DNA of 60,829 bases from Actinomycetaceae bacterium (GTDB lineage: Bacteria; Actinomycetota; Actinomycetes; Actinomycetales; Actinomycetaceae): contig JAUNHH010000015.1 in NCBI GenBank assembly GCA_030524055.1, positions 1 to 60,829 on the forward strand, in the 5' to 3' direction. This document shows positions 2,512 to 58,515 of the stretch, piece after piece. The notes beneath the pieces are model-generated. The model was not told the DNA's origin and ran no database searches. It saw only the letters and a program-made list of their open reading frames with translations. Positions within the stretch are counted from its first letter, which is position 1. Every line of letters starts with the position of its first letter. The position numbers were made by a program, and so were the translations under genes.

Positions 2512-3365
2512 CAATTGGGGCGGGTGGCCCAGATAGCCACGGCAGCGGCAGCGGCCACATTGAGGGAATCCACGCCAGCAGCCATAGGAATACGCACCAC
2601 CTGATCACAATTCGCTACTGTCGCCCGGGAAAGGCCATCGCCTTCAGTACCCATAACCAAGGCAATACGGGAATCGGCCGCAGTACATACAGGGCTCGCA
2701 GCAAAATCCTCAAGGGAGACGGAATCGTCCCGCAGTGCCAACGCCGCAGTGGTAAAACCTGCCTGCCGGAAAATCTCAAGATTGGCGGGCCAGCGATCAA
2801 TACGAGTCCATGGCACTTGGAAAATCGTGCCCATCGACACCCGGACACTGCGCCGATATAAGGGATCTGCGCAGCTGGGGGTAACCATCACGGCATCAAC
2901 CCCAAGAGCAGCAGCACTGCGGAACGCCGCTCCCACATTCGTGTGGTCCACCAGATCTTCGAGAATAAGGATTCTGCGCTTTTGCGCCCCGCCCTCGTGA
3001 AGTAACGAGGAAACGCTGGGGAGCTCCGGACGATGCATGGCTGCCAATGCCCCCCGATGGAGATGGAATCCCGTTATCGCCTGAAGGATGTCCTCCTCGG
3101 CAATAAAAACAGGAATGTCGCCCCCATCAGGAAAGCCTGTTGCCCGAGTAAGTAGGGGAGCAAGGGTGTCAATCCAGCGTGGTGCCATAAGAAATGAACG
3201 AGGGCGAATCCCCGCCTCAATAGCGCGCATAATGACATTAGTGGACTCCGCCATAAAAAGGCCGCGCTCTGGCTCAAAACGCGAACGTAAGCGGACATCG
3301 GTCATTGACACATAATCAGCAAGACGCTCATCCTCACCGTCCAGGTGATCAATAGTAATCAGCAC
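2511..3365 (-). CDS. TrmH/SpoU-family RNA 2'-O-methyltransferase
   Basis: A 284-residue SPOUT-class methylase that would transfer a methyl group from S-adenosylmethionine to a ribose 2'-OH in rRNA or tRNA. The N-terminal part (about 1-120) is the substrate-binding domain. The C-terminal SpoU domain shows motif 1 in LVDHTNVGAAFRSAAALG, motif 2 in IALVMGTEGDGLS and motif 3 in IPMAAGVDSLNVAAAAAVA, which form the knot that binds the cofactor. It lies 3 bases after pyrD on the same strand, so the two are cotranscribed. An exact copy of the 12-mer at 2987-2998 encodes HEGGA in the linker between the domains. The target nucleotide cannot be read from sequence. Confidence 0.9.
   Translation of the reverse strand: MLITIDHLDGEDERLADYVSMTDVRLRSRFEPERGLFMAESTNVIMRAIEAGIRPRSFLMAPRWIDTLAPLLTRATGFPDGGDIPVFIAEEDILQAITGFHLHRGALAAMHRPELPSVSSLLHEGGAQKRRILILEDLVDHTNVGAAFRSAAALGVDAVMVTPSCADPLYRRSVRVSMGTIFQVPWTRIDRWPANLEIFRQAGFTTAALALRDDSVSLEDFAASPVCTAADSRIALVMGTEGDGLSRATVANCDQVVRIPMAAGVDSLNVAAAAAVAIWATRPN
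2987..2998 (-). repeat. Exact 12-mer ACGAGGGCGGGG (minus strand), in CDS
   Basis: Solo copy of the window-wide word, read on the coding strand of the TrmH-family gene in the inter-domain linker. Confidence 0.9.
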
Positions 3366-3368
3366 TCT

Positions 3369-4400
3369 TTAGTACTCCGCTAGGGCCCGATTCATCCAAC
3401 CCGGCCAACTTGGCCCCTCATAAATAAAGGCAGTAAAGGACTCAACGAAGTCAGCGCCCGCCTCTAAATAATCCAAGGCATCATCGGGAGTAAAAATACC
3501 ACCCGCCGCAATCAAAATCTGCTCATCCTCAATATGGTGGGCAAGAAGACGCACAACCTGCAGAGCCCGAGTTTTTAATGGGGCCCCAGAAACTCCGCCC
3601 GCACCATGGCGGTGAGCAATCGTCGTATTTGTGGCGACAATCCCCTCAACGCCTAACTCTTTCGTCAATTCGGCGACCGCAATAATATCCTCATCCGCTA
3701 AATCGGGAGCAATCTTCACGAAAAGAGGAATAGAACGGGTCGTGCCCTCCTCAATGCCTTTTCGCGCTGCCTCTAAAATCGGTCGAAGATGATCCGTTGA
3801 CTGTAAATCACGCAAACCCGGAGTATTCGGTGAAGACACATTCACGACAATAAAATCCACCCACCGGGCAAGAGTGCGCGCACAGAAATAATAATCATCG
3901 GCCGCGCGCTCTTCTGGGGTCACTTTATTTTTGCCGATATTGGCACCAATAATTGCCGCCCGCCCATCGCGTGTAGACCGTAATTTCTTAAGGCACTCGG
4001 CGGCGGCAAGAGCCCCCTCATTATTAAATCCCATTCGATTACGTAGGGCCCGCTCATCCATAATGCGCCACAGGCGCGGCTGCTCATTGCCATCCTGAGG
4101 CAGCGGAGTAATAGTCCCCACCTCAATAAAAGCAAAACCCATGGCCGCAAGGCCCGCCGCTGCCTGCGCATCTTTATCCATACCCGCAGCTAAACCAAGA
4201 CGCCCATAAACTGTGCGCTGTCCAATCCGAACCGGCGCTGCCTGGCGCGGCTGATACCCCAGGCACGCACGCATGAGACGGCGGGTCAGGGCGCAATTCC
4301 CTGCCTTTTCAATGGCGGCCACCGCATTGTGGTGGGCCACTTCAGGATCGCTTCGATGAATAAGGGTCCGGAAAAGCTGACGGTAAAGCGCGCGCATCAT
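3369..4400 (-). CDS. pyrD: Dihydroorotate dehydrogenase, quinone-dependent (class 2)
   Basis: A 343-residue FMN enzyme that oxidises dihydroorotate to orotate in pyrimidine synthesis, passing electrons to the membrane quinone pool. The N-terminal helical part (MRALYRQLFRTLIHRSDPEVAHH) is the class 2 membrane-docking extension. The barrel shows GLAAGMDKDA and the VGTITPLPQ FMN region, NRMGFNNEGA for substrate contact, and VNVSSPNTPGLRDLQ, which holds the class 2 catalytic serine. Full length for the family. It is the upstream gene of a two-gene unit with the RNA methylase (3-base gap). No other pyr genes are visible here. Confidence 0.95.
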   Translation of the reverse strand: MMRALYRQLFRTLIHRSDPEVAHHNAVAAIEKAGNCALTRRLMRACLGYQPRQAAPVRIGQRTVYGRLGLAAGMDKDAQAAAGLAAMGFAFIEVGTITPLPQDGNEQPRLWRIMDERALRNRMGFNNEGALAAAECLKKLRSTRDGRAAIIGANIGKNKVTPEERAADDYYFCARTLARWVDFIVVNVSSPNTPGLRDLQSTDHLRPILEAARKGIEEGTTRSIPLFVKIAPDLADEDIIAVAELTKELGVEGIVATNTTIAHRHGAGGVSGAPLKTRALQVVRLLAHHIEDEQILIAAGGIFTPDDALDYLEAGADFVESFTAFIYEGPSWPGWMNRALAEY

Positions 4401-4437
4401 GCCTTAAGGGTACTGGTTGTCTCCCGAATTCCGCGGC

Positions 4438-4995: not shown

Positions 4996-5117
4996 AGCGT
5001 CCTTGCCTTTCGGAATATGCCGGTAATGCAAGGAGCTTGGCGCACTGCGCGCCGGTAAATCTACCGGAGTGCGGGCGCCTGTGAATTGGCACTTTTTGCC
5101 ACCGGCCCAATTGTGAA

Positions 5118-5157
5118 AACGGCGTTATCCCACCACTAGGGTGTGGATAACGCCGTT
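5118..5157 (-). terminator. Terminator for the DUF3043 gene
   Basis: A perfect 13-bp stem (AACGGCGTTATCC at 5118-5130 with 5145-5157) lies 36 bases after the DUF3043 stop. On the minus strand it is followed by TTTTC, a short U tract. It carries no copy of the repeated 12-mer. Confidence 0.75.
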
Positions 5158-5193
5158 ACACCTGTGCTGCGCCGCAGATCGGCACACCGCGTC

Positions 5194-5838: not shown

Positions 5839-5895
5839 GGCCCCAAGTCTACGGGATAAAGAGGGGCGTCAATATCGGTGCCCACAGCGCCCGCA

Positions 5896-5907
5896 CCCCG
5901 CCCTCGT
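5896..5907 (-). repeat. Exact 12-mer ACGAGGGCGGGG (minus strand), between divergent genes
   Basis: Solo copy in the upstream region shared by the DUF3043 and M20 peptidase genes. Here it cannot act as a terminator for either gene. Confidence 0.9.
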
Positions 5908-5953
5908 CACCTCGGGTGACACTTCTTCGCCAAAGGGCACTACTGTGGTGCCT

Positions 5954-7327
5954 ATGACACATACTTCTCTTCCCTCAACTGACGTTTTGCGTGACCACCT
6001 TGAGGCGGCATTCCCCCAACTTCTGGAGGATCTGTCCACCCTGGTTTCTATCCCTTCGGTCTCCCTGGACCCCAGCAAGGCCAGCGAGCTAGAGCGTTCT
6101 GCTGAAGTGGTGCGTTCCTTCTTTGAAGGCGTTGGCCTCCAGGCGCGGGTGACGAATTCGACCACCGCTGAAGGTGTGGTAGGAAAACCCGCGATTATTG
6201 CGCGCAGCAAGCATATTGAGGGCGCTCCCACCGTTCTTCTCTATGCGCACCACGATGTGCAGCCTGCAGGTGATGAAAGCCGATGGAAGACGAATCCTTT
6301 TACCGCCACCATTGTTGATGACCGTATTTATGGTCGTGGGGCTTCCGATGACGGTGCGGGAATTATTGTCCACCTGGGCGCGCTGCGCACTTTAGGTGAG
6401 GACCTTCCCGTTAATGTTGTCGTCTTTATTGAGGGCGAAGAAGAAATCGCCTCACCCTCATTTAAAACCTTCCTTGCTGAGCACGCCGAAGAATTGCGCG
6501 CCGACGTGATTATTGTGGCCGACTCCGATAACTGGAAAGTCGGAGAGCCTGCCGTCACCACAACTTTGCGCGGCAATTGCGCATTCACTATGGATATTAC
6601 GGTGGCTGATCACGCTGTCCATTCGGGAATGTTTGGCGGCCCCATGGTTGATGCCGTGACCTGCGGCGCCATGCTGATTTCCTCCTTCTATGACGAGGAC
6701 GGGAATATTCGCGTTGAAGGCCTGGGCGGCACCGATAAAGCCGATGTGGATTGGCCCGAAGATGAATATCGTGCGGCCGCTGGCATTCTTGACCAGGTGA
6801 AATTGGCCGGCACCGGTGACCTTGCTGCCCGCGTCTGGACGAAGCCGTCAATTACGGTGATCGGTTGGGATACCACTCGCGTTGCTGACTGCTCGAATAC
6901 GATTGTGCCGTCAACAAAGGTCCGTATTTCTGTGCGGACTGTCCCCGGAATGGCTCCGGAAGAAGCGCTGGATCATATGCGCGCTTATATTGAGAAGAAT
7001 GCGCCTTTTGGTGCCCGCGTTGAGCTTTCTGATTTTGAGCTTGGCCCCGGATATTCCGCTGATGAAAATGCGCCTGCCGTGCATTTGCTACATGAGGTGT
7101 TAACGGAAGCGTGGGGTGTGCCGTCGGTCAATATTGGTGTGGGCGGCTCTATTCCCTTTATTTCCTATTTCCAGCAGACATTCCCCGAAGCGTCAGTATT
7201 GGTGACCGGCATTGAGGATCCCTTTACGAATGCGCATTCAGAAAATGAATCCCAGTCGATTCCTGATCTGAAGAATGCGATTTTGGCGCAGTCTCTTCTG
7301 CTGCAGCGTTTGGCCGCCCAGGCGTGA
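5954..7327 (+). CDS. M20-family metallopeptidase (dipeptidase)
   Basis: A 457-residue cytosolic zinc peptidase of the M20 family. Metal and catalytic motifs are clear: VLLYAHHDVQPAGD (first His and catalytic Asp), RIYGRGASDDGAG (bridging Asp), and VVFIEGEEEIASPSF (catalytic Glu pair). The middle 'lid' domain starts near DADNW and the C-terminal GIEDPFTNAHSENES supplies the last His. I chose the ATG at 5954 because the longer frame runs antisense into the DUF3043 gene. It overlaps the next gene by 4 bases. Substrates are probably small peptides; dipeptidase is the usual annotation for this subgroup. Confidence 0.92.
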   Translation: MTHTSLPSTDVLRDHLEAAFPQLLEDLSTLVSIPSVSLDPSKASELERSAEVVRSFFEGVGLQARVTNSTTAEGVVGKPAIIARSKHIEGAPTVLLYAHHDVQPAGDESRWKTNPFTATIVDDRIYGRGASDDGAGIIVHLGALRTLGEDLPVNVVVFIEGEEEIASPSFKTFLAEHAEELRADVIIVADSDNWKVGEPAVTTTLRGNCAFTMDITVADHAVHSGMFGGPMVDAVTCGAMLISSFYDEDGNIRVEGLGGTDKADVDWPEDEYRAAAGILDQVKLAGTGDLAARVWTKPSITVIGWDTTRVADCSNTIVPSTKVRISVRTVPGMAPEEALDHMRAYIEKNAPFGARVELSDFELGPGYSADENAPAVHLLHEVLTEAWGVPSVNIGVGGSIPFISYFQQTFPEASVLVTGIEDPFTNAHSENESQSIPDLKNAILAQSLLLQRLAAQA

Positions 7328-8301
7328 ATATTGCGCTGATTGGCCACTGGTCTGCTCATCCTCATATTTCTGGCGGGGATGAGCAGACCCGGCCATCCAC
7401 CCCGCAGGCTTTGGCTGACTTGGCACGAGGACTGTCAGCAGGCGGACATGCGGTGGAGGTCCTGCCTTTCGGGTCGGGCGCGGATTGTGCCCGCGCCTTA
7501 GAGGCGGTCTCTTCGCCCTATGTCCCCGTGATCCATGGTGCTGATGAGACGGGGAGTCGAGCACTGGGGGAGCGGCTCCTACAGATCCTGGGGAGTAGCC
7601 AGGCACCGCGCATTATTGTCGAGGGCGGACATAGCGCTTTTCCTGACGCCGGATTTGGTTTTCTTGAAGCCCTGACCGGAATACACCTCCCTTTTGACGC
7701 TTCATCGGTTGCACGCCTACCAGAAGCAATTGCGGCTGCCCGGAAGATTGTGGCTTCCGCACAGATTCGTGTTGCTGCCTCCACTGCTCGGCCCCTGATT
7801 GGCCCAACGTCGCCTCTGCTGATTGGGCCCGATCTTTTGCCCCGCAATGATGTGGACCCCGCCCTCGTGCGTGACCTTGGACGCCTTCGACTGCCCACTG
7901 CTGCCCTGCCTCTGGCAGATACGCAGCCCCCAGACTTTTTCCGCCTCCCCGGTAGCGGCGCGGCTGGAGGAGCCGCCGGAATCCTTGCGGCCTGCGGGGC
8001 ACGGCTGGCCCCCACGGGCGATATTTTGGCCACGCTGACCGATCTTTCTGACCGGATTGCCGCCAGTGACCTGGTGGTCATTGCTGAACCCGAAATGCAT
8101 TCCTCATCTCTTGCCGAAGCGCATGTCGATACGATTGCTCAGCTGGCCGCAGACTATGCCCTCCCTGTTGTGGTGGCTGCCATAGAGAGTTCGTTATCGC
8201 GTCACGAATGGGCCCAGTGGGGTATCCATGGAGTGGTGACTGCAGGTGAGAATTGTGAGGAGCGAGGTCACAGAATCGCCCGAACCTGGGCCCGACCTTG
8301 A
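7324..8301 (+). CDS. Divergent glycerate kinase-like protein
   Basis: A 325-residue protein translationally coupled to the peptidase (GTGA overlap). Two regions recall glycerate kinase (GlxK type): TPQALADLARGLSAGGHAV near the start, and GSGAAGGAAGILAACGARLAP followed by TDLSDRIAASDLVVIAEPEM, which matches the family's Gly-rich and 'ADLVITGEG' segments. The usual N-terminal FKGSLSA and ADGGEGT motifs are not recognisable and the protein is about 50 residues shorter than typical enzymes. It may have changed substrate or lost activity. An exact 12-mer copy at 7857-7868 encodes DPALV in a variable stretch. Confidence 0.6.
   Translation: MNIALIGHWSAHPHISGGDEQTRPSTPQALADLARGLSAGGHAVEVLPFGSGADCARALEAVSSPYVPVIHGADETGSRALGERLLQILGSSQAPRIIVEGGHSAFPDAGFGFLEALTGIHLPFDASSVARLPEAIAAARKIVASAQIRVAASTARPLIGPTSPLLIGPDLLPRNDVDPALVRDLGRLRLPTAALPLADTQPPDFFRLPGSGAAGGAAGILAACGARLAPTGDILATLTDLSDRIAASDLVVIAEPEMHSSSLAEAHVDTIAQLAADYALPVVVAAIESSLSRHEWAQWGIHGVVTAGENCEERGHRIARTWARP
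7857..7868 (-). repeat. Exact 12-mer ACGAGGGCGGGG (minus strand), in CDS
   Basis: Solo copy inside the glycerate kinase-like gene, read on the strand opposite to the coding strand and encoding PALV in the gene's own frame. Confidence 0.9.
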
Positions 8302-12280: not shown

Positions 12281-12324
12281 TTCACGAGGGCGGGGCGCCA
12301 GTAGCAACCCCGCCCTCGTGAATT
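12279..12324. terminator. Hairpin of inverted 12-mers after trpD
   Basis: Two exact 12-mers in inverted orientation (12284-12295 and 12308-12319) lie within a perfect 17-bp stem, AATTCACGAGGGCGGGG pairing with its complement at 12308-12324. The stem starts inside the trpD stop codon and the loop is 12 bases. No T tract follows. Confidence 0.8.
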
Positions 12325-15452: not shown

Positions 15453-15464
15453 CCCCGCCCTCGT
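15453..15464 (-). repeat. Exact 12-mer ACGAGGGCGGGG (minus strand), intergenic
   Basis: Solo copy starting right after the BglG stop. Together with the next bases it forms only a short GCCCTC-GT-GAGGGC palindrome, not a full terminator. The rest of the gap to HPr (15465-15590) holds no clear gene. Confidence 0.9.
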
Positions 15465-17603: not shown

Positions 17604-19415
17604 TTAGGTGCTGGCAGCATCATGAAGGTATTCGCGACTAAGGCCGAGTTTCTTTATCAATGCCGTGGCGCCTAAAGGTGAATGCACTGGATCTTCCCAG
17701 GGTGTTTGCGAATCCCAATGCACTAAACGCGCATTAGCGGCGCGCAATGATGAAGCAATAAGTGCGCATTCTTCCCGGGTGGCAGAGGCAAAAAGAATAT
17801 CTGGCTGAGGCAGAATTTCTTCTTCGAGTAATGCCTCCACCCACGGGGTGGGCAGCGTTTTCGGTGGGGTGACAATAGAGCGAATATGGCGGCCCCACGA
17901 GGCCATATGGAGCTCCCATCCGCCCTGTTCCCGGTAAAACGCCCAAATAATTCGGGCAGATAATGCGACGGGCACAATAGCGCTTCTTTTCGCGACACCA
18001 AGAACATAAGAATGCAGGGCTTCACGCCACCGGGTCGCTGTTTCATAATCTTCCCGCTCACTGGCGCTTTCCATAAACTCCACGCACCTATCCACCACTT
18101 CGCGGTGCTCACCACGGAGCGCTGCGATCACCTGTTTCCGTGACTGCACATCAAATACTCCGCTGCGCAACAGTGGTGCGGATTCAGGTGGGCAATAGGT
18201 GGCCGCTAACGCATCTAAGGCGCGGTCAGCCTGCGCCTTCGTACTAAAAGGCCCGAGAGCACGCTGCAGCGCCTCATTATCGATTAAGGGCACTGTTTCT
18301 AAACGCGATTTCCCAAAAGGTCCAGCCGCCACCCAATATTGCGCATCCTGGCGCGTCGACGCCGAATTGAAAAGTGGCCTCAGGGAGTGAATATCTCGGA
18401 GTTCATTAATGCGCGCTTCGAATTGAGTATGGGTCACCTGCACGTCAACGCCCACAGCTAAATCCAGCATTCGCTGTACTTTCGCGCGCTTTTCAGAGGC
18501 CGTGAAATAGGAACGCACCCGCGAGCGCAAATTCGTTGCCGACCCGATGTATAGGGGCGCTCCGCCCTCGTCAATAAAACGGTAGGTCCCGAATGTGCGC
18601 GGCAAATTGTCGGCCATTGCGACTTTGCGTTTGCGAGAGGTCGGCACGGGCGCACCCAAAGTGGTGAGGTCTTCGAGGGTGGAGACTCCAACGGGTGTCA
18701 TGAGTTCAATGAGCCCCCACAGGACGTCCACGGTAATGAGGGCATCTCCTAGGGCCCGGTGTTGGACGGGGGAGGCATGGAAGTGGCTGGCAAGGGTGGC
18801 GAGTTTATGGTTGGCCACCATGGGGCGCGGCAGGATGAGGCGTGCCAGGGCCAAGGTGTCAACAACGCGGGGTTTTGGCCAGGGAAGATCGCAACTGTGG
18901 GCAGCTCGGCGGAGGAAGGGGATGTCGAAGTTGGCATTGTGGGCGACAAGTACTGGCCCATTGTGAAGTGAAGTAAGCCACCCTGTGTTGTCGGCGGGTG
19001 GGTGTGCCATCTCGTTATCTAGGCCAGCCCAGGCCGCAAACGCAGGGTAGGCCTGGTCGATGGTTGGAGCCCCTTCGACCATGGAATCAGTAATGCCGGT
19101 CAGCGCGGTAATACGTGCGGGGATGGCCACTTCAGGGTTGACCATAGTGTGAAACTCGTCGATAACTGTGCGACCGCGAACTTTAACAGCGCCGATTTCT
19201 GTAATGGCTGCGCGTGCACCTAATCCCGTGGTTTCGAGGTCAACAACAGTCCATTCGACCTCGTCAAGTGGTGTTCCGAGTTGGTCGAGTCCGACTTGGA
19301 CTTCCGGGGTCAGACGCGACTCTATCTGCGTGCGCACATGTGCACGGTGGGCTGCACATGTGTCCGACCCGTCCGATGTGTGCGCAAAGGGGGCGCGGGA
19401 GGGGGCAGAAGTCAT
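17604..19415 (-). CDS. DEDDh exonuclease fused to UvrC-like GIY-YIG domain
   Basis: A 603-residue fusion. The N-terminal half is a DnaQ-type 3'-5' exonuclease with VVDLETTGLG (Asp, Glu), AHNANFDIPFL (Asp) and HRALGDALITVDVL (His, Asp). The second half begins with a GIY-YIG-like nuclease ([30 protein letters not shown]) as in UvrC, followed by a UVR-like region (VEFMESASEREDYETATRWRE). I know this fusion from Actinobacteria (Rv2191 type); it is probably a DNA repair nuclease, but its exact role is unsettled. I chose ATG 19415, with AGGA upstream, over a start 11 codons earlier. A one-mismatch 12-mer at 18560-18571 encodes DEGGA. Confidence 0.88.
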   Translation of the reverse strand: MTSAPSRAPFAHTSDGSDTCAAHRAHVRTQIESRLTPEVQVGLDQLGTPLDEVEWTVVDLETTGLGARAAITEIGAVKVRGRTVIDEFHTMVNPEVAIPARITALTGITDSMVEGAPTIDQAYPAFAAWAGLDNEMAHPPADNTGWLTSLHNGPVLVAHNANFDIPFLRRAAHSCDLPWPKPRVVDTLALARLILPRPMVANHKLATLASHFHASPVQHRALGDALITVDVLWGLIELMTPVGVSTLEDLTTLGAPVPTSRKRKVAMADNLPRTFGTYRFIDEGGAPLYIGSATNLRSRVRSYFTASEKRAKVQRMLDLAVGVDVQVTHTQFEARINELRDIHSLRPLFNSASTRQDAQYWVAAGPFGKSRLETVPLIDNEALQRALGPFSTKAQADRALDALAATYCPPESAPLLRSGVFDVQSRKQVIAALRGEHREVVDRCVEFMESASEREDYETATRWREALHSYVLGVAKRSAIVPVALSARIIWAFYREQGGWELHMASWGRHIRSIVTPPKTLPTPWVEALLEEEILPQPDILFASATREECALIASSLRAANARLVHWDSQTPWEDPVHSPLGATALIKKLGLSREYLHDAAST

Positions 19416-19461
19416 AGAGTTGATCCTAGTTCGCTTTCCGTCCCTCAATGCAGGAGGAATC

Positions 19462-20334
19462 GTGGGTCTGTACCAGGCGTTGAAAATCGCAGGATCTCCT
19501 GTGCTCCAGGCTGCTTATAAGCCGTGGATTCGCGGTAAGGAGAATATTCCGGAGACCGGGCCAGCGATCCTTGCCTCCAATCACAATGCGGTGTGGGATT
19601 CGGTGTTTTTACCCATGATGATTGACCGTGAGGTCGTCTTTATGGGTAAGGCTGACTATTTTACGGGCACGGGGGTTAAAGGGTGGGCAACGAAAACCCT
19701 GATGAGTGCTGTGGGCACAATCCCAGTGGATCGTAGTGGTGGGCGTGCTTCGGAAGCGGCATTAAAAGCCGGGTTGGACCGGTTGAATCGTGGGGAGCTT
19801 TTCGGCATTTATCCTGAAGGCACCCGTAGCCCTGATGGGCGCCTATATCGAGGGAAAACAGGTGTGGCCCGTTTAGCGATTTTGTCGGGTGCGCCAGTGA
19901 TTCCGGTGGCAATGATTGGCCTTCATGATGCGCAGCCTGTGGGTCGGGCAATCCCGAAGACGGGTGTCAATATTGGCATTGTGGTGGGCAAACCTTTGGA
20001 TTTCACTCGCTATCGTGGGTTACATAATGACCGTTTTGTGCTGCGTGCCATTACGGATGAGATTATGTATAACCTCATGTTGCTCTCTGGTCAGGAGTAT
20101 GTGGATCTCTATGCGGCTGATGTGAAAGCACAGATGGCTGCTGATGGTTCTTTTGCGGGACCCGTTCCAGAATCTGCTGGTCGTGCCCCGGGTGGGCGTG
20201 AAGCCCCTGTTGTTGAGGTTCCTGGTCCTCCTGAAGAAGAGGTGTCTAGTGACGAGGGCGGGGCCAACACTCAGGACAAGCCCAGCGATTCTGATGACCA
20301 GGAGGGGAGTGCCTCGGCCGGGGCACAGTCCTGA
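19462..20334 (+). CDS. plsC: 1-acyl-sn-glycerol-3-phosphate acyltransferase (PlsC family)
   Basis: A 290-residue enzyme of phospholipid synthesis at the inner membrane face. The catalytic motif NHNAVWD (residues 40-46, HX4D) and the phosphate-binding GIYPEGTRS (115-123) are clear, with VIPVAMIGLHDAQP later. The last 70 residues are Pro, Gly and acid-rich and probably disordered. The GTG at 19462 follows a near-ideal AGGAGGA. It diverges from the exonuclease with 46 bases between starts, so the promoters overlap. An exact 12-mer copy (20252-20263) encodes DEGGA in the disordered tail. Confidence 0.92.
   Translation: MGLYQALKIAGSPVLQAAYKPWIRGKENIPETGPAILASNHNAVWDSVFLPMMIDREVVFMGKADYFTGTGVKGWATKTLMSAVGTIPVDRSGGRASEAALKAGLDRLNRGELFGIYPEGTRSPDGRLYRGKTGVARLAILSGAPVIPVAMIGLHDAQPVGRAIPKTGVNIGIVVGKPLDFTRYRGLHNDRFVLRAITDEIMYNLMLLSGQEYVDLYAADVKAQMAADGSFAGPVPESAGRAPGGREAPVVEVPGPPEEEVSSDEGGANTQDKPSDSDDQEGSASAGAQS
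20252..20263 (+). repeat. Exact 12-mer ACGAGGGCGGGG (plus strand), in CDS
   Basis: Solo copy in the low-complexity C-terminal tail of PlsC, where protein constraint is weak. Confidence 0.9.
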
Positions 20335-23130: not shown

Positions 23131-23175
23131 TACGAGGGCGGGGCGCGGATTATCTTCTCCGGCCCCGCCCTCGTG
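23131..23175. terminator. Hairpin of inverted 12-mers between convergent genes
   Basis: Exact copies at 23132-23143 and 23163-23174 pair to give a stem of 12-13 bp with an 18-base loop, between the DAHP synthase and the PASTA kinase. The right arm is followed by GAATTC, as at 52105. Confidence 0.8.
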
Positions 23176-28805: not shown

Positions 28806-28854
28806 ACGAGGGCGGGGCGCCTCTCCTGTGAAAGGGGAAGCGCCCCGCCCTCGT
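28806..28854. terminator. Hairpin of inverted 12-mers after the sigma factor gene
   Basis: Exact copies at 28806-28817 and 28843-28854 lie in a perfect 15-bp stem (to 28820 and from 28840), loop about 19 bases. On the minus strand TTTATT follows, so it may also end the YbjN-like operon. Confidence 0.82.
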
Positions 28855-35239: not shown

Positions 35240-35421
35240 ACAAACCGCGCCGACAACGACAATTGCTGCTGGAAAATACGTTGTGGTGGCGGTTTGTATT
35301 GATGTACGAGGGCGGGGCGACTATTTGCCCAGGTCGGTAATTACAGGTCACCAGCCTGAATTGACAAAGCGCGCCCACAATGACAATTGCCGCTGGAAAA
35401 TACGTTGTGGCGGCGGTTTGT
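35240..35421 (+). repeat. Composite 182-bp repeat, copy 2 (with exact 12-mer in spacer)
   Basis: Units of exactly 58 bp at 35240-35297 and 35364-35421 flank a 66-bp spacer. The second unit plus its preceding spacer is a near-direct repeat of the first (CAGGTCGGTAATT and GGTCACCAGCCTGAATTG occur before both), so a partial third period starts near 35199. Unit arms are ACAAACCGC and GCGGTTTGT. The spacer holds an exact 12-mer (35306-35317). The surrounding gap 35155-35567 between convergent genes has no gene; a one-mismatch 12-mer lies at 35520-35531. Confidence 0.85.
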
Positions 35422-35567: not shown

Positions 35568-38027
35568 CTACCCCAGGGTGGCTATTGGTAGGGAAATAGG
35601 CGACCCTGATCCGTCTCGGCGTGGATCTTCGCTTGGCAACTCCACTGGAGCTCCATCAGCAGTACTGGCGCGCACGGGACGCGGCCCCACCCACGCACAG
35701 TCAAGGCGGTCTTCCCCGCGCAGGAAACGCTGCGCGCGCACCCCTTGTCCGCCGCGGCCTTTAGCTGGGTAGAGCTCAAAGGGGGTGACTTTCATTGTGG
35801 TCTGGCCCGTACCCGGCAAAGCCCCAGCAGCAGCAGCCACGGTCACCACCACGGACTCTTCAACGGAGGTAATGACGTGGAAAGCAATGACGCGCGCCCC
35901 GTCAGCGACTTTCATCCCGGCCATTCCGCCAGCTGTACGGCCCTGCGGGCGGACTTTTGCGGCGGGAGTACGCAAAAGATGCGCATCGGAGGTGACAAAC
36001 ACAATGTCAGCCTCATCTGGGCAGGGGAGAAGAGCAACGACACTATCGCCATCGTCCAGGGAAATCACTTCCCACGTGTCACGTTGTAGCACGTCGGGTT
36101 TGAGGCGTTTGACGACGCCGCGCGCTGTGCCCATCGCAACGACAGTGTCCGCATTAGGGTCGAGCAGACCAATGGGGGGTGAGTCCACGGCCAATAGTGA
36201 CGAGGCCGGGGCCGCATTCGACAGTGACAGTCCTGACTCAAAACGCGGCAGCGCCGGCAAATCCAAGACGTCGAGGCGATGCGCCAGCCCATTAGCGGTC
36301 ACCACCGCAATCTGTGAACGCGTGGAGGAGGGGAGCTGAGCGCGCCAAATATCGTCTGCCGTGCGTGGACCCACCTCGACGGGGTCCGCGCCTTCAATTC
36401 GGATGAGCCCCCCTGAAGGGGTGAGAAGAATAGTGCAGGGTTCATCGGCGATTTCCAGATCTAAGCCGCCTTTACGGGCTGACGCTGCTGGCAGAGCGGC
36501 AAGCGCTGCATCCGCATTGGCAGCGATGGTTTCCCCACCGTCTGCAGACAGCAAAATCGTGCGCCGCGGGGTGCCAAGGCGCCTGGCCACCTCCTGGAGT
36601 TCCTCTTTAACTAGGGCATGGAGGCGTTCCGTTGAGGACAGAATCTCCTCTAAATCGCGAATGAGGCCCTGAAGTTCATCACGTTCTCCTTCTAATTCAA
36701 TTCGGGAGAATTTTGTCAGGCGCCGCAGACGTAACTCCAAAATATGATTGGCTTGGAGTTCACTTAAATCAAAGGCATGCATGAGCCGCTGCCGCGCAAT
36801 ATCAGCGTCATCCGAGGAACGAATAATCGCAATCACATCGTCAATATCGAGAACCGCAATAAGGAGGCCCTCGACCAGGTGGAGGCGTTCTTGGTGTTTA
36901 TTTAGGCGGAATTGGCAGCGTCGGGTAATGACATTCACCCGGTGGTCTAAAAACACCTGGAGCATTGCTTTCAGTCCCAGGGTTTGCGGCTGGCCACCCA
37001 CCAGGGCAACGGCATTAATAGAGAAAGAATCCTCTAGTGGGGTGCGCTGGTAGAGGTGCTGGAGAACAGCCTCAGGGTTAAAGCCATTTTTAATCTCGAT
37101 CACCAGGCGTAGACCATGAACCCGGTCAGTGAGATTCTGAACGGAGGAAATACCTTTTAAACGCCCGGCAGTGACATTTTCTTTAATGCGCTCGATGACT
37201 TTTTCTGGCCCCACCATATAGGGCAATTCGGTGACAATAATGCCTGTCCTGCGGGCACTAATCCGTTCAATAGAGACTTTCGCTCGGGTTTTAAATGCGC
37301 CGCGCCCCGTTTCATAGGCGTCTTTTACGCCTTCTAAACCGACAATAATGCCGCCCTCAGGTAAATCTGGGCCGGGAATAAAACGCATGAGATCATCGGT
37401 GGTGGCTTCTGGATGATCAAGGAGATGGCAGGAGGCCGCAATAGTTTCGGCCAGATTATGGGGGGCAATATTGGTGGCCATCCCCACGGCAATACCAGAA
37501 GCACCGTTGACCAGCAGTTGCGGATAGCCAGCGGGGAGAACCTCCGGCTGTTGGAACTGGTTGTCATAGTTGGGGACGAAGGTGACAGTGTCCTCGTCCA
37601 GACCTGCCACAAGGTCCATTGCTGCTGGAGCTAAACGCGCTTCGGTGTACCGGGCCGCTGCTGGGCCATCATCAAGGGACCCAAAATTTCCGTGCCCATC
37701 GATGAGGGGGACACGCAGGTTAAAAGGCTGGGCCAGGCGCACCAGAGCGTCATAAATGGCGCTATCTCCGTGGGGGTGGAGTTTACCCATCACTTCGCCA
37801 ACAACGCGCTGAGATTTCACGTGCCCACGGTCTGGCCGCAGTCCCATTTGTTCCATTTGGAACAGGATGCGCCGCTGTACGGGTTTGAGACCGTCGCGGG
37901 CATCGGGTAGGGCGCGGGCGTGGATAACAGACACTGCGTACTCAAGGAAAGAGGTGCGCATTTCCTGCGAGACATCAATCTCGGAGATATTTTCCTCAAG
38001 ATCAGGGGAGATGGGAGTATCCGTCAT
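35568..38027 (-). CDS. parC: DNA topoisomerase IV subunit A
   Basis: An 819-residue DNA cutting and rejoining subunit. The N-terminus has SFLEYAVSVIHARALPDARDGLKPVQRRIL, the quinolone-region block VVGEVMGKLHPHGDSAIYDALVRLAQPF, and the catalytic Tyr in AARYTEARLAP. A C-terminal beta-propeller wraps DNA; it has repeated blades and lacks an obvious GyrA-box, in line with ParC. The start is ATG 38027 or the ATG two codons upstream (38033). A variant word (ACGAGGCCGGGG) lies at 36200-36211. Partner of the parE gene 2.6 kb away on the other strand. Confidence 0.9.
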   Translation of the reverse strand: MTDTPISPDLEENISEIDVSQEMRTSFLEYAVSVIHARALPDARDGLKPVQRRILFQMEQMGLRPDRGHVKSQRVVGEVMGKLHPHGDSAIYDALVRLAQPFNLRVPLIDGHGNFGSLDDGPAAARYTEARLAPAAMDLVAGLDEDTVTFVPNYDNQFQQPEVLPAGYPQLLVNGASGIAVGMATNIAPHNLAETIAASCHLLDHPEATTDDLMRFIPGPDLPEGGIIVGLEGVKDAYETGRGAFKTRAKVSIERISARRTGIIVTELPYMVGPEKVIERIKENVTAGRLKGISSVQNLTDRVHGLRLVIEIKNGFNPEAVLQHLYQRTPLEDSFSINAVALVGGQPQTLGLKAMLQVFLDHRVNVITRRCQFRLNKHQERLHLVEGLLIAVLDIDDVIAIIRSSDDADIARQRLMHAFDLSELQANHILELRLRRLTKFSRIELEGERDELQGLIRDLEEILSSTERLHALVKEELQEVARRLGTPRRTILLSADGGETIAANADAALAALPAASARKGGLDLEIADEPCTILLTPSGGLIRIEGADPVEVGPRTADDIWRAQLPSSTRSQIAVVTANGLAHRLDVLDLPALPRFESGLSLSNAAPASSLLAVDSPPIGLLDPNADTVVAMGTARGVVKRLKPDVLQRDTWEVISLDDGDSVVALLPCPDEADIVFVTSDAHLLRTPAAKVRPQGRTAGGMAGMKVADGARVIAFHVITSVEESVVVTVAAAAGALPGTGQTTMKVTPFELYPAKGRGGQGVRAQRFLRGEDRLDCAWVGPRPVRASTADGAPVELPSEDPRRDGSGSPISLPIATLG

Positions 38028-38238
38028 GCGCATTGATCTATTGTCCAGTCCGTTCAGGCTTCCGCTTCGACTCCCACGCCGCCAGCAGGCACAATTGGCG
38101 GGTGGACATATGGAGCGTAAATGATCCTGCGGCATTTTACCCAGCTGCACTGCATGGGCCTTCATGGCGGCCACACACTCGGGCCACTCTCGACGCCGGC
38201 CCTCAACTTGCCAGCGCCTTACAGAAAGGGCTCCAGTA

Positions 38239-39444
38239 GTGACCAGTGAGAAGACGCCCCCGGGGAGTGCTCCGTCCAACCAGTCTGATCTTGCGCCTCT
38301 TGCGCGAGCCCGCGCCGATAGTGATGGCGCCCCACATTTGCCACTCCCAGGCGAGTTACACCTCACGGAAGTTCTTGGTGGCGCTATTGCCTCCCTCTCG
38401 CCGGACCTTCCTGGTGCGCTGCCAGATATTGCGACCCGTTTAGGCCTTGATCAGGGCGAGCAGTGTCTGGTGATTCTCGTTGACGGGCTGGGTTTGCTGC
38501 CTTTAGAAGATCACTATGGGCACGCTCCGACCTTGCGTGCGTTGCGCTCATCCACTTTCCCGGCTCATACGGTGGCTCCCTCGACAACGGCGGCGGGGAT
38601 TACGGCATTCGCTACGGGCGCGCGACCGGGGGCAACCCGAATGGTGGGCTATTCGGTGGCGTATAACGGCGCGCAGGTGGCGTCCCTGCTGACCTTCGAG
38701 CATGGGGTGGATCCTCGGTCGTGGCAGGAAGTCCCGCCCCTTTTTGAACGCCTCGCGGCCGAGGGGGTGGAGTGTGCGGTTATTTCTCCGGCCGCTTTCG
38801 CCAATTCTGGCCTGACCCGTGCGGCGCTGAGTGGAGCCCGCCATGTCGCTGCACAAGAATGGACTGAGCGCTGCGAGGCGGCGTTAAAAGAACTCCGCAA
38901 TGGCACCCGCGTGGTGTACCTGTATTGGTCAGAGGTTGACCATGCAGGTCATGGGCATGGGATTGCCTCAGATGAATGGGTGGGCGCTTTGGAGGAGTTT
39001 GACCGTGGCCTGGCAGGTTTGATTCGTCGCTTGCCTGCGACTACGCGGGCAGTACTGACCGCTGACCATGGGATGGTTGATGTCAATCCGGACCTGCATA
39101 TTGACCTGGCCCATCACCCTTTTCTTGCTGAGGGGGTGCGAGTGATCGCGGGCGAAACCCGCGCTGTCCATGTTCATGCTTTTAGTGGCCAGGCTGACAA
39201 CGTGCGTCAGCGCTGGGAGGAAGAGCTTGCCGACCGAGCGTGGATTACTTCTGCTGCGGAGCTTTCTCAGATGATTGGGCCAGGTCCGGGGAGCGCAGAA
39301 ATGGGTGATTTTGTGGCGTGGATGAAAGGCCGCCATGGGATCGTTAACTCGATGACGCAGCATCCGGGGTTGCGCGGTCTGATTGGGGTCCATGGGTCGC
39401 TGACCGCTGAAGAAATGCTGATCCCGGTGGTGCGCCTCCACTAG
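38239..39444 (+). CDS. Alkaline phosphatase superfamily phosphodiesterase
   Basis: A 401-residue protein of the nucleotide pyrophosphatase/phosphodiesterase type. Metal ligands and nucleophile regions are visible: LVILVDGLGLLPLEDHYGH (Asp), TVAPSTTAAGITAFATG (Thr nucleophile), YWSEVDHAGHGHG (Asp, His) and VLTADHGMVD (Asp, His). No signal peptide is seen after the GTG at 38239, so it is probably cytosolic unless exported by another path. AAAGGG lies upstream. It is divergent from parC. The natural substrate is unknown; nucleotide or phosphonate-type diesters are typical. Confidence 0.85.
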   Translation: MTSEKTPPGSAPSNQSDLAPLARARADSDGAPHLPLPGELHLTEVLGGAIASLSPDLPGALPDIATRLGLDQGEQCLVILVDGLGLLPLEDHYGHAPTLRALRSSTFPAHTVAPSTTAAGITAFATGARPGATRMVGYSVAYNGAQVASLLTFEHGVDPRSWQEVPPLFERLAAEGVECAVISPAAFANSGLTRAALSGARHVAAQEWTERCEAALKELRNGTRVVYLYWSEVDHAGHGHGIASDEWVGALEEFDRGLAGLIRRLPATTRAVLTADHGMVDVNPDLHIDLAHHPFLAEGVRVIAGETRAVHVHAFSGQADNVRQRWEEELADRAWITSAAELSQMIGPGPGSAEMGDFVAWMKGRHGIVNSMTQHPGLRGLIGVHGSLTAEEMLIPVVRLH

Positions 39445-39454
39445 CGGAATTTTT

Positions 39455-39496
39455 CACGAGGGCGGGGCACAGCAACACTGACACCCCGCCCTCGTC
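39455..39496. terminator. Hairpin of inverted 12-mers between convergent genes
   Basis: Exact copies at 39456-39467 and 39484-39495 form a 12-bp stem with a 16-base loop between the phosphodiesterase and sepH stops. On the minus strand it is followed by GAAAAATT rather than a T run. Confidence 0.8.
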
Positions 39497-44459: not shown

Positions 44460-46409
44460 GTGCAGCAAATCCGCGCCCACTCTGTGATGGTGCCACCTGG
44501 CCAGGAGTCTTCTACTCAAGGCGCCACGTGGCACCGCTTGCGTAAGCGTGACGCCCTGCTGCTTTTCGCTCCAGGAGTTCTCGCCGCCTCCCTCATAATC
44601 CCAGACGAGATCCTCCTCACCTTTAGTTATGGTGGCACCCCCGCCCTCGTCCACACTGTGGCAACTGCCTGCGCTATTGCCCTTTTCATTGCCATCACAC
44701 TCCTGTCATGGCACCGCACCCTTCAGGCATACCCCGCTGCCCGTGGCGACTATGACATTGCTTCAGTCAATCTCGGAGCACATGGCAGTCTCCTCGTGGG
44801 ATGTGCCCGAATCCTTGAAGCGTTCCTCTATCCGGCCCTGTGCCTGTCAGCTGCCACCAGAGTGTTGACATCAACACTGCCCGCACTCGCCCCTTACCAC
44901 GGGCTCATTGCTGTCCTTACAGCCCTTGTCCTGGCGGCCCTGCGCCTACGACCGCCCATATTGTGGGCCCACCGGGCAGTCACACTCTGTGCCCTCCTCA
45001 CAGTGGCACTCCTTGTCACAGGTTTCGCAGTCGCTGGCCTCATCTCGCCCCCGCCCTCGTCGCCACTGTCACGCCCAGCAATGGACCCACTTCTCGGCAT
45101 GATCCTTATCGCCCACGCCAGCACCTATGGAGGTGCCCTCCTCGGAGGACTTGGCGCCGTGGCCACCGCCTGCCCAGATTTCCACCGGCCCCACTCACGC
45201 TCGGCGATGACTGCGACGAGTATTCTTGCCGGCCTATCCGTGGCTACTCTCACCGCGATTACCCTCCTCATCCCCGCACTATCGGCCTCCCACGTGTGGA
45301 GGGCCGGACCACTCCTGTCCCGCCTCACCACCACAGTGGCAGGCACAGGCACCGCGCTCGCGGCCCTTCTGATTCTTCCTCTCGTAGCCCTGATGATTCT
45401 TGCGGCGAATACCAGCCTGAATGGGTTCCCCACTCTCATTGACACTCTGTCACGCGACTCATTCCTGCCCCGCCACTTCCGCACCAGCAGCGTCCGGCGC
45501 GCCCACCAGACCACCAGTCTTGTCCTCATTTTTGCCGCCCTGGCAATCACCCTTGTCAGTGGAGCTACTACTACTCGGATCCTCCCGCACTACCTCACCT
45601 GCGTCCTCCTCATTGCGACACTGGTTGCCTACGCGATGATCCGCCACTGGAACCACCACCTGCGCCAACCCCAAAGCGGTAACGAAAGACGCCGCGTCCT
45701 GCGGTGGCGCGCAGCCAATGTTGTGGGCTTTATGGCAGCAGGAATTCTCCTCCTTATTGTGGCGATCACCCACTTTATGGATGGAGTGTGGATTAGCCTG
45801 GTAGTAATGGGGCTCCTTTTTGCTATTCAGCGTTTTATTCGCCGCCACTACGAACAGGCGGCACACTACCGTGACCGTGAAATCCACGGCCACGCGGGAT
45901 CAACTGCACCCACCCGAATCCGCGCCCTCATTATCGCCTCCACTATTGACGCCGCCACCAGGCACACAGTGACACTGGCAAAAGCAGGCGCACCCTCGTC
46001 AATGGAAATCCTCGCCGTCGCTGACCCTACTGATCATGGAGAAAAAATCCACGCCACCTGGGAACAAAGCGGCGCCACCATCCCACTCACCATCCTCGAC
46101 GCCCCCAACCGGGATGCCACCGCCGCTATCCTGGCCCACCTGCGCCACCTCAGGAACCGCACCCCCAATGAAATGCTCATGGTGTACCTCCCTGAAATCC
46201 TCACCCCCCAACCGTGGCTTGGATCTCTTCACAATCACGACACTCACCGCCTCGCCCGCAAAGCCCTGGACATCCCCGGAGTGCTCACTGTGACAGTCCC
46301 CTGGACACTCAGCGACACCGAAAACGACACGCCTCCACCAAACGACCCATTCCGACGCACCCCGCCCGGGGCCGCGCACACAATCCCCACCTCAAATCAA
46401 GGAGAATAA
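44460..46409 (+). CDS. APC-family amino acid permease-like protein with C-terminal soluble domain
   Basis: A 649-residue membrane protein. Residues about 30-480 hold roughly twelve hydrophobic helices of an amino acid permease; the start KRDALLLFAPGVLAASLIIPDEIL is like that of APC proteins beside TrkA genes (Rv2690c). The last 150 residues form a soluble alpha/beta domain (RIRALIIASTIDAATRHTVTLAKAG, MEILAVADPTDHGEK). Substrate unknown. The gene ends most codons in C and carries two exact 12-mers on the minus strand, at 44639-44650 and 45049-45060, encoding PALV and PPSS. The start GTG has only a weak ribosome site. Confidence 0.82.
   Translation: MQQIRAHSVMVPPGQESSTQGATWHRLRKRDALLLFAPGVLAASLIIPDEILLTFSYGGTPALVHTVATACAIALFIAITLLSWHRTLQAYPAARGDYDIASVNLGAHGSLLVGCARILEAFLYPALCLSAATRVLTSTLPALAPYHGLIAVLTALVLAALRLRPPILWAHRAVTLCALLTVALLVTGFAVAGLISPPPSSPLSRPAMDPLLGMILIAHASTYGGALLGGLGAVATACPDFHRPHSRSAMTATSILAGLSVATLTAITLLIPALSASHVWRAGPLLSRLTTTVAGTGTALAALLILPLVALMILAANTSLNGFPTLIDTLSRDSFLPRHFRTSSVRRAHQTTSLVLIFAALAITLVSGATTTRILPHYLTCVLLIATLVAYAMIRHWNHHLRQPQSGNERRRVLRWRAANVVGFMAAGILLLIVAITHFMDGVWISLVVMGLLFAIQRFIRRHYEQAAHYRDREIHGHAGSTAPTRIRALIIASTIDAATRHTVTLAKAGAPSSMEILAVADPTDHGEKIHATWEQSGATIPLTILDAPNRDATAAILAHLRHLRNRTPNEMLMVYLPEILTPQPWLGSLHNHDTHRLARKALDIPGVLTVTVPWTLSDTENDTPPPNDPFRRTPPGAAHTIPTSNQGE
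44639..44650 (-). repeat. Exact 12-mer ACGAGGGCGGGG (minus strand), in CDS
   Basis: Solo copy in the permease gene, between predicted membrane helices 1 and 2. Confidence 0.9.
45049..45060 (-). repeat. Exact 12-mer ACGAGGGCGGGG (minus strand), in CDS
   Basis: Second solo copy in the permease gene, 400 bases on, in the Pro/Ser loop SPPPSSPLS between helices. The reading frame relative to the word differs from the first copy. Confidence 0.9.
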
Positions 46410-47929: not shown

Positions 47930-47941
47930 CCCCGCCCTCGT
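47930..47941 (-). repeat. Exact 12-mer ACGAGGGCGGGG (minus strand), in aconitase leader
   Basis: Solo copy between the palindromic operator and the aconitase start, probably in the mRNA leader. No inverted partner within 300 bases, so not a terminator. Confidence 0.88.
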
Positions 47942-52062: not shown

Positions 52063-52105
52063 ACGAGGGCGGGGTGCGCTAAAAATAGTGCAACCCCGCC
52101 CTCGT
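52063..52105. terminator. Hairpin of inverted 12-mers between convergent genes
   Basis: Exact copies at 52063-52074 and 52094-52105 make a 12-bp stem with a 19-base A-rich loop. On the minus strand the stem is followed by ATTTTTTT, a true U tract, so it ends the S9 peptidase transcript; on the plus strand GAATTC follows. Confidence 0.88.
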
Positions 52106-54129: not shown

Positions 54130-54251
54130 GAGAACCTCTTCACATCGGGGGCGGCCACGGTGCGTGGCTACATGGACGAGTCTAGTGCGCCGACCCGTTT
54201 TATTCCCAGATGTGACCGGAGCGTGGGCGGCCTGCCATTAGGATGTCGCCC

Positions 54252-56147: not shown

Positions 56148-56177
56148 TCTGGGCACCCACTGGGGTGGATAGCCGCG

Positions 56178-56189
56178 CCCCGCCCTCGT
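56178..56189 (-). repeat. Exact 12-mer ACGAGGGCGGGG (minus strand), between convergent genes
   Basis: Solo copy in the 47-base gap between the dxs and rnd stops, with no inverted partner there. It shows that gene-end copies are not always arranged as hairpins. Confidence 0.9.
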
Positions 56190-56194
56190 ACAAG

Positions 56195-57439: not shown

Positions 57440-57441
57440 CC

Positions 57442-58032
57442 TTAGGCCCCTAAAAGGTGATTCGGGGCTTGCGCGCCGGAGGTACGGCACATGAGATCGG
57501 CCCAGGCGTGGAGATGCTCACCAAGATAGGGCGTTGAAGGAGTCCATGAGGCGCGGACTTCTACGTGGGCGGTGGCACCGCGTAGCTCTAGTCCTCCAAA
57601 GGACTCTGACAATTCGCGGGTGACAGTCCCATTGAGGTCGTGGTAACTCGCGCCAGCGTCATAGAGACAGTCGTGCATCCAGTCCCACATGGCCGCGGCA
57701 AGAGCAGGATCGGTCCCCATGTCGTGGTCAATTTGCGAGCGGCATTGGGCAACGAGACGGAAATTCCCATTCCATCCAACTTGTTCGATGGGGTCATGGA
57801 GGACAACAAAACGGCCAGAGGCTAATGCTTCGCCATTTTCTTCACTGCGAGTGCGCATGGAAATCGCGGCAGACCATGGGGCGAGGCGGGTTGGCGCGGG
57901 AACCTCTTCGAGATCGACCATCGACGTCCCTCCCGCATCTCGCAGGCTGGTCAGAGCCGTGAGAAAGTCTTCGGGCAGCTGTGTTTCGGTCACCGTTAAA
58001 CAGTAGGCATGCCTCGGGAGCGACGCAGGCAC
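57442..58032 (-). CDS. DUF3000 protein
   Basis: A 196-residue actinobacterial protein with the family's landmarks: APWSAAISMRTRSEENGEALASGRFVVLHDP, WNGNFRLVAQCRSQID, AMWDWMHDCLYDAGASYHDLNGTVTRELSESFGGL, and a C-terminal WADLMCRTSGAQAP. It is cytosolic and of unknown function. The start is uncertain: GTG 58032 lacks a ribosome site and a GTG 13 codons in (57993) is an alternative that fits the conserved core. It precedes rnd with a 2-base gap, so the two are cotranscribed. Confidence 0.85.
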   Translation of the reverse strand: MPASLPRHAYCLTVTETQLPEDFLTALTSLRDAGGTSMVDLEEVPAPTRLAPWSAAISMRTRSEENGEALASGRFVVLHDPIEQVGWNGNFRLVAQCRSQIDHDMGTDPALAAAMWDWMHDCLYDAGASYHDLNGTVTRELSESFGGLELRGATAHVEVRASWTPSTPYLGEHLHAWADLMCRTSGAQAPNHLLGA

Positions 58033-58515
58033 GGCACGCCGCCGAACCTGGGACGAGGCTGTGAAGGGGGTGCGATGACGCTGGATTGAATGGTTATTGA
58101 GTATGCATAGAAATTGGACATGCGGCGAAGCTGTGGTGGCATCTACTTCGGCTGTGCTTCGCGGTGGGTTTTATTAGGTATGGCCTGGGGTTTTATCGAA
58201 TTCGTCGGTGGGAATTTTTTGGCTAAGTGGGGAAGAAGGTGGCCTGAGAGGGAGAGGGGTCGCTCTATGTGTGATCAGGCGTTTTACCTGCAACGCGGAA
58301 AAGTGTGATTTTTAGCACTAAGGTGGATTGGTGGAGGGTGTGTTGCGGCAACGAGGGCGGGGCGCGCATCACTACACGTCAATGATGCTCGCGCCTCGCC
58401 CTCGTCACCTATTGCCCTGCGCCCCAGGCGCTGGTGAAGCAACAGTGTTGGCTGAAAGGCCACTCTTTGGCGTGCCCGGGGTCTTTTACTGTCGAATGCG
58501 ATGTCTTTGGAGGAA
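58033..58515. other. Intergenic region with 12-mer hairpin
   Basis: About 480 bases. A hairpin of one exact copy (58351-58362) and one single-mismatch copy (58394-58405) lies in the middle, extended by GCGCG/CGCGC, and probably ends the GlgX transcript. The rest (58033-58345) holds the likely upstream region of the DUF3000 gene. A 64-codon open frame at 58114-58308 has no known relatives that I recognise and no ribosome site, so I leave it uncalled. Confidence 0.7.
58351..58405. terminator. Hairpin of inverted 12-mers after glgX
   Basis: ACGAGGGCGGGG at 58351-58362 pairs with CCTCGCCCTCGT at 58394-58405 (one mismatch), with an outlying GCGCG/CGCGC step; the loop is about 20 bases. It lies 110 bases after the glgX stop on the minus strand. 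Confidence 0.7.

Follow-up and report, generated by a model that had tools for sequence, protein, structure and literature searches.

A candidate DNA uptake sequence in an actinobacterium and its dialects in related genomes

We have analyzed a 12-base word, ACGAGGGCGGGG, that is repeated throughout the genome of an Actinomycetaceae bacterium (assembly GCA_030524055.1). The word came to attention in a 60,829-nucleotide stretch of that genome (contig JAUNHH010000015.1, positions 1 to 60,829; the whole stretch is called the window here), for which an earlier note had proposed a DNA uptake sequence, that is, a tag by which a naturally competent cell favours DNA of its own kind. This is probably what the word is. 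Of the explanations tested, this one agrees best with the properties that can be read from sequence. The descriptive part of the proposal is supported by the number of copies, their strand balance, consensus and placement, the dialects found in sister species and the machinery genes present. The functional part (competence, preference for own DNA, a receptor, molecular drive and transcription termination) is suggested by these features, strongly so in the case of uptake.

Abundance, consensus and placement of the word

The genome (3,034,260 bases in 47 contigs) contains 1001 copies of ACGAGGGCGGGG, a density of about 330 copies per Mb, with 500 on the forward and 501 on the reverse strand. The reversed word, used as a control, occurs once. 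The count against a Markov model that the earlier note had recommended gives a large excess: 144 copies were found in 480,074 bases sampled from the genome (16%), where models of order 3 to order 5 predict 0.12-0.35 copies with the word masked and 0.14-1.3 with it unmasked. All 21 exact copies reported for the window were recovered at their places and strands (8 plus, 13 minus). The word is the top 12-mer there, and 100 dinucleotide shuffles of the window gave 0 copies. Both orientations occur, as claimed, and strand polarity is absent in the genome as a whole and on one 254-kb contig (39/32), the position of the replication origin not being located.

The even spread reported for the window also holds. 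The largest gap between sites is 6500 bases, in line with the limit of about 6.5 kb given before, and the coefficient of variation of the spacing is 0.41, where 95% of random placements give 0.61-1.37. Spacing on contig 3 lies at the even edge of the random range (0.79 vs 0.79-1.24), and in the stretches from C4 and C46 it lies inside that range. The longest gap on contig 3 is 13.1 kb, a size within chance, and by eye its genes are surface-sugar-like. A search for prophage-type integrases found only two genes of the tyrosine integrase family, neither of which stood out as prophage-type; these are presumably xerC and xerD, and one of them lies 2 kb from dprA.

The word has a sharp consensus. 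In 385 kb there are 116 exact copies, compared with 108 for all 36 one-mismatch forms combined; among these variants position 7 accounts for 41 and position 11 for 25, and positions 4 and 6 for none. The longer consensus is AT-tg-ACGAGGGCGGGG-C, about 17 conserved bases in total, with frequencies of 0.68 for A(-4), 0.64 for T(-3) and 0.72 for the C after the word; flanks farther out are unrelated. Even with the exact word masked, 10-mers related to it such as ACGAGGGCGG and ACGAGGACGG rank with those of highest enrichment; the word is thus surrounded by degenerate forms of itself. The AT flank accompanies 31 of 53 intergenic single copies, 20 of 30 paired copies and 17 of 61 coding copies; at other ACGAGG sites its frequency is 66/361.

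Gene positions were taken from a home-made, unbenchmarked gene caller, which predicted 376 genes covering 87% of the bases in 480 kb. Of the 144 copies, 64 are genic and 74 intergenic, 5 sit at the edges of stretches and 1 straddles a gene end; the density is 1.19 copies per kb between genes vs 0.15 inside. Genic copies are 33 sense and 31 antisense, and 42 of the 64 fall in two codon frames. Placement at gene ends, which the earlier note had likened together with mixed orientation to known uptake sequences, is borne out: intergenic density is highest between convergent genes (4.0 per kb), followed by tandem (0.95) and divergent genes (0.79). Thirty of the 144 copies form 15 inverted pairs with arms 12-52 bases apart. 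Convergent genes have 18 of these paired copies between them, tandem genes 9 and divergent genes 0, and the other 3 are genic; 61 unpaired copies sit inside genes, on both strands.

Seventeen of the 21 window copies lie between genes and four inside them. Three of the four genic copies are antisense, at 7857..7868 (minus strand, in gene 7324-8301 on the plus strand) and at 44639..44650 and 45049..45060 (both minus, in gene 44487-46409, plus); the fourth, at 2987..2998 (minus), is sense in gene 2511-3365 (minus). Ten copies form five inverted pairs, each with its left arm on the plus and its right arm on the minus strand. Pair 1 (12284..12295 and 12308..12319) begins 4 bp past a stop codon between tandem genes, and the segment 12270-12335 folds at -37.7 kcal/mol. 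The other four lie between convergent genes: pair 2 (23132..23143 and 23163..23174; -40.0 kcal/mol), pair 3 (28806..28817 and 28843..28854; -51.0 kcal/mol), pair 4 (39456..39467 and 39484..39495; -29.9 kcal/mol) and pair 5 (52063..52074 and 52094..52105; -38.1 kcal/mol). These hairpins are terminator-like, and their folding energies range from -30 to -51 kcal/mol with z scores of -4.4 to -7.6. A run of T follows the hairpin only for pair 5, on the minus strand; the other four pairs have none on either strand.

The remaining window copies are unpaired and intergenic. Those on the minus strand are at 5896..5907 (between divergent genes), 15453..15464 (immediately past a stop codon, between tandem genes), 47930..47941 (between tandem genes, upstream of an aconitase gene) and 56178..56189 (between the convergent dxs and a ribonuclease D-like gene). 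Those on the plus strand are at 35306..35317 (between convergent genes), 58351..58362 (between tandem genes) and 20252..20263, which lies between divergent genes according to the gene caller and is also spanned by an open frame at 19168-20334.

Genic copies were compared with relatives by means of 27 tblastn alignments that span the word and cover 16 of the 64 genic copies. Sixteen of these alignments are free of gaps to a distance of 12 residues from the word; thus the word often lies within ordinary conserved protein sequence, with no visible insertion there.

Dialects and second words in related genomes

A survey of 200 genomes of the family, 35 from the genus of this bacterium, one that belongs with Actinomyces provencensis, and 165 from other genera, found more than 19 copies of ACGAGGGCGGGG only within the genus; each of the 165 others has at most 19. 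Next to the 1001 copies described above are 190 in G161, 157 in G167, 135 in G188, 108 in G192 and 93 in G175, with lower numbers in the rest of the genus. The earlier note had recommended looking for the same or a drifted word in related genomes, and two drifted forms were found, both changed at position 7. The C-word, ACGAGGCCGGGG, occurs in 119-426 strand-balanced copies in 10 genomes of the genus, in 185 copies in the mixed genome G161 and in 167 copies in the present genome; in 105 genomes of other genera it has at most 15 copies. The A-word, ACGAGGACGAGG, has 231 copies in G157 and 122 in G161; the other 33 genomes of the genus have no more than 74 each. The G, C and A forms share the core CGAGG-CG. 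Inverted pairs of the C-word are present in G009, G102 and G132.

The 9-mer core ACGAGGNCG was counted in 57-117-kb samples of 19 sister genomes (G179, G042, G085, G125 and G153, with 17-20 kb each, were left out). It reaches at least 1.9 times the order-4 expectation in 17 of the 19 samples and 11 times in the present genome. Seven other genera, mixed related families and Streptomyces gave values of 0 to 1.7 times, and one genus (g10) gave 2.5 times, so sister values near 2 are weak evidence when taken alone. In 16 Streptomyces loci, 20 genic copies of ACGAGGGCG occupy two codon frames only; the dialect 9-mer in G102, G009, G157, G167 and G161 occurs in more frames and on both strands. It is also somewhat commoner between genes than the non-coding share predicts in samples of G102, G009, G157 and G167 (in G009, 13 of 32 copies, with 21% non-coding), and no such excess was seen in those of G161, G171 and G173.

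In a tree of TadA from the second Tad locus (17 rows), a branch with support 100/99 separates the six C-dialect genomes from the rest. On the other side, the G-dialect genomes (four rows) lie among low-word genomes; G157, with the A-form, stands on a long branch of its own. Two repeats of other kinds were seen in relatives. One is AACCTATCC, half of the palindrome AACCTATCCGGATAGGTTA, which recurs next to the second Tad locus in the C-dialect genomes G042, G085 and G125, with 11, 6 and 9 copies per 17-kb stretch (L222, L226 and L225, respectively). The other is a 23-base tandem unit with CGAAGTCCGCTC in A. provencensis (L145:9758-10183), in two facing arrays about 300 bases apart.

A different word is found in genus g10. 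In 460 kb sampled from G067, CGACG(C/T)TGCC has 103 copies (55/48 on the two strands), within the sharply bounded consensus g-g-TGG(A/C)CGACG(C/T)TGCCGCC. Genes cover 81% of this sample, and 43 of 105 copies of TGG(A/C)CGACG(C/T)T lie between genes, compared with 4 of 53 for the codon-like control GACGACGCC. Genome-wide, ACGACGYTGCCG has 222 copies in G067, 121 in G010 and 14 in G043, all of genus g10. These sequence features make it a possible uptake word of a second Actinomycetaceae genus. Two observations count against this: 60 of 75 genic copies of the centre are sense, with 59 in one frame, and a scan of the G067 samples found no inverted pairs. G067 also carries a longer dispersed repeat with CGGTCG(C/G)ATGTACCCCG (L255:17331, 17483, 2095 and 2324; L251:3447 and 16589), near palindromic G-rich stretches, which is perhaps a mobile or structural repeat. 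For the word ACGACGACGCCG of genus g17, 2 of 16 sampled copies of the 10-base centre lie between genes.

Competence and Tad pilus genes

The genes for competence and pili that the earlier note had suggested looking for are present in the genome. A comEA-like gene, with SLBB and helix-hairpin-helix domains, lies directly before comEC, and there are a dprA gene and two Tad loci. The first of these loci is of the 'helicase/secretion neighbourhood' type and includes a DUF4244 protein that looks like a Flp pilin; the second encodes TadA-, TadB-, TadE- and TadG-like proteins. The machinery proteins score above the Pfam cut-offs wherever Pfam names them. A search of the whole genome for the T2SSE motor family found two proteins over the cut-off, both TadA-like.

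Within the genus, comEC was found in 33 of 35 genomes, including all 32 good assemblies. No second TadA was found in G132, G139, G150, G186 (where a 19-bit match was counted as none) and G194 (an assembly in 280 contigs). All five have comEC, and none is word-rich, a term used here for genomes in which any of the three words reaches 100 copies. In three poor or fragmented assemblies, G190, G192 and G198, one TadA or both are absent. Among the 16 word-rich genomes, 15 carry the second Tad locus and G192 does not. Fisher tests of this association, which ignore kinship, give p = 0.047 for all 35 genomes, 0.046 without G190, G192 and G198, and 0.10 when G194 is also dropped.

Micrococcus luteus, the actinobacterial model of natural transformation, takes up DNA with the help of comEA, comEC and two tad clusters, and a comG cluster is lacking in it (PMC6370729, PMC8467076); Tad pili are tied to DNA uptake in Liberibacter crescens as well (PMC8513845). 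We propose that fragments carrying AT-tg-ACGAGGGCGGGG-C would be recognised by a receptor located either on a Tad/Flp-type pilus or on ComEA. Pilus retraction would draw the bound fragments through the wall and hand them to ComEA, after which the DNA would be threaded single-stranded through ComEC, protected by DprA and recombined. Alleles with a better word would be taken up and recombined more often, a molecular drive by which words may pile up at nearly harmless sites, both at the ends of genes and at genic positions whose residues permit it. The inverted pairs at such ends may double as transcription terminators. As the specificity of the receptor drifts, the word of the genome would drift with it, giving dialects by clade. 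The small pilin-like proteins of the second Tad locus (L190:12284-13675; TadE-like, TadG-like and an unassigned one of 181 residues) are 29-57% identical between this genome and its sisters, compared with 61-78% for TadA; we infer that they are the first candidates for the receptor.

Alternative explanations and comparison with known systems

The main rival is a site for an intracellular DNA-binding protein acting in nucleoid structure, segregation, recombination or repair, bound about once per 3 kb in either orientation. The consensus, which is dispersed and sharp, invariant at its centre and degenerate in its flank, would also be compatible with such a site; so would the even spacing in the window, and dialects could track a co-evolving protein. 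High-copy signals such as Chi and KOPS (FtsK-orienting polar sequences) are polarised with replication. A signal of the Chi or KOPS type was rejected on the strand balance of the genome and of the 254-kb contig (500/501 and 39/32; origin not located), and the same balance weighs against a protein site in general. So does the excess of exact copies over all one-mismatch forms combined, which is unusual for regulatory sites. We know of no family of intracellular protein sites with 1000 non-palindromic 12-mers in both orientations. Taken together, these points make a protein site unlikely, if still worth keeping in mind.

The paired copies raise the question of whether the word is part of a transcription terminator or an RNA hairpin element, its particular sequence being a matter of history. 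The strong folding of the five window pairs, the concentration of paired copies between convergent genes with 0 between divergent ones, and the T-run after pair 5 are all in keeping with terminators. A terminator needs a hairpin and not one particular sequence, however, and four of the window pairs are without a T-run. Only 30 of the 144 copies are paired, and the 61 unpaired ones within genes occur on both strands. A pure terminator reading was rejected, most copies being unpaired and many genic, and we regard terminators or hairpin elements as an improbable origin of the word. Remnants of a mobile repeat, whether REP/BIME (repetitive extragenic palindromes/bacterial interspersed mosaic elements) or MITE (miniature inverted-repeat transposable elements), would account for high copy number and inverted pairs. 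A fixed longer unit spread by insertion was not found, however: only about 17 bases are conserved, the flanks are unrelated and 16 of 27 alignments are ungapped near the word. This origin was rejected and is very improbable. Equally hard to credit is a by-product of codon or amino acid usage (Glu-Gly-Gly, or Asp-Glu). In its favour are the values of ACGAGGNCG in other genera, up to 1.7 times the order-4 expectation and 2.5 times in one sample, the restriction of ACGAGGGCG in Streptomyces to two frames, and the two frames that hold 42 of 64 genic copies here. Half of the copies in the present genome are intergenic, however, sense equals antisense, and none of the 165 genomes of other genera has more than 19 copies of the 12-mer. 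This explanation is refuted for the 12-mer in its own genome; the weak enrichments in some sister species must still be interpreted with caution.

A DNA uptake sequence, which we favour over these explanations, has to be set against several observations that weigh the other way. The AT flank in coding copies is not clearly more frequent than at other ACGAGG sites (p = 0.08). Eleven of the 27 alignments are gapped near the word, sometimes in the word itself; 5 of these 11 are matches of 24-36% identity. The comEA product, ComEC (against the full-length model) and the second TadA score below the NCBIfam equivalog or subfamily cut-offs. The ComEC and DprA families also match in 10 and 11, respectively, of 14 control genomes, and their presence here is therefore weak evidence. 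The second Tad locus is found in 12 word-poor genomes as well, so that its link to the word is weak. Two genomes with the locus, G159 (1.1 times) and G114 (1.5 times), are not clearly enriched for the 9-mer core in the samples. G132 and G186 are without the locus, yet their C core is still in excess (9 vs 1.2 and 10 vs 1.9 expected); these are either relics or a contradiction. No receptor was picked out in this analysis, and a literature search found no uptake or transformation experiment on this organism. On the other side, four findings that the earlier note had listed as telling against an uptake sequence were looked for, and none was observed: counts are far above the Markov level, copies are spread through the genome, no strand polarity is seen (origin not located), and competence and pilus genes are present.

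The closest parallel is the DNA uptake sequence (DUS) of the Neisseriaceae. According to Frye et al. 2013 (PMC3630211), DUS are 10-12 bases long with an AT on the 5' side and occur in hundreds to thousands of copies, with inverted pairs at gene ends and permissive intragenic copies; their dialects differ by a few bases and follow the tree, with an inner core kept. The present word is similar in length, AT flank, copy number, inverted pairs at gene ends, intragenic copies and dialects. A minority of a sister dialect is another common feature: N. meningitidis is given there 165 AG-mucDUS 12-mers beside about 1900 DUS 10-mers, and the present genome has its 167 C-words beside 1001 G-words. The two systems differ in that the present word is unrelated, with its AT two bases off the core and a Gram-positive host, in density (about 330 vs about 860 copies per Mb in Neisseriaceae), and in that both T2SSE-family ATPases over the cut-off are of Tad type. 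The inner core CTG of the Neisseriaceae word GCCGTCTGAA is not in the consensus.

The uptake signal sequence (USS) of the Pasteurellaceae is similar in number, in its mixture of genic and intergenic copies and in its inverted repeats, and it likewise comes in two types within the family (PMC12616744, PMC2346458). It differs in having a 9-base core of another sequence and a Gram-negative host. The present word holds GCGG but neither USS 9-mer, AAGTGCGGT or ACAAGCGGT, and the C-dialect lacks even GCGG. Micrococcus luteus, as described in PMC6370729 and PMC8467076, belongs to the same phylum and shares comEA beside comEC and two Tad loci. It is reported there to lack a comG cluster; the ComG complement of the present genome was checked through the T2SSE ATPase family only. 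The phrase 'uptake sequence' occurs 0 times in the text of PMC8467076, which mentions no uptake word. The present system is proposed to be convergent with DUS and USS and to work like them; it is a member of neither, the word being unrelated to both.

A 2025 paper (PMC12616744) gives the Neisseriaceae and Pasteurellaceae as the only families known to have sequence-specific DNA uptake, and no tag of this kind seems to have been described from Gram-positive bacteria. Full-text searches of open-access literature, a body that leaves most subscription papers and bioRxiv outside, brought up no account of such a word from Actinobacteria; the letters of ACGAGGGCGGGG do turn up there in two papers on human cells. 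We lean, with some reserve, towards a third and independently evolved uptake-sequence system in the Gram-positive Actinomycetaceae, one with a receptor on a Tad/Flp pilus in place of a type IVa pilus, with position-7 dialects in one genus and with TGG(A/C)CGACG(C/T)TGCCGCC in a second genus. If this is true, a third origin in a Gram-positive phylum with Tad pili would make it possible to test which parts self-recognition needs, whether it depends on an outer membrane or a type IVa pilus, and what makes such words evolve at all. It would also predict word-guided natural transformation in word-carrying Actinomycetaceae, and so a practical genetic tool for them.

A few other features of the sequence can be recorded. 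The window contains four copies of the 14-base word ACAAACCGCCACCA, its complement being counted too, and an excess was also seen for ACAAACCGC (12 vs 0.6 expected in 101 kb). Two window genes that lie a short distance apart, at 30861-32969 and 35568-38366, encode type II topoisomerase subunits B and A, respectively. Both score under the gyrase equivalog cut-offs, and they may therefore code for topoisomerase IV.

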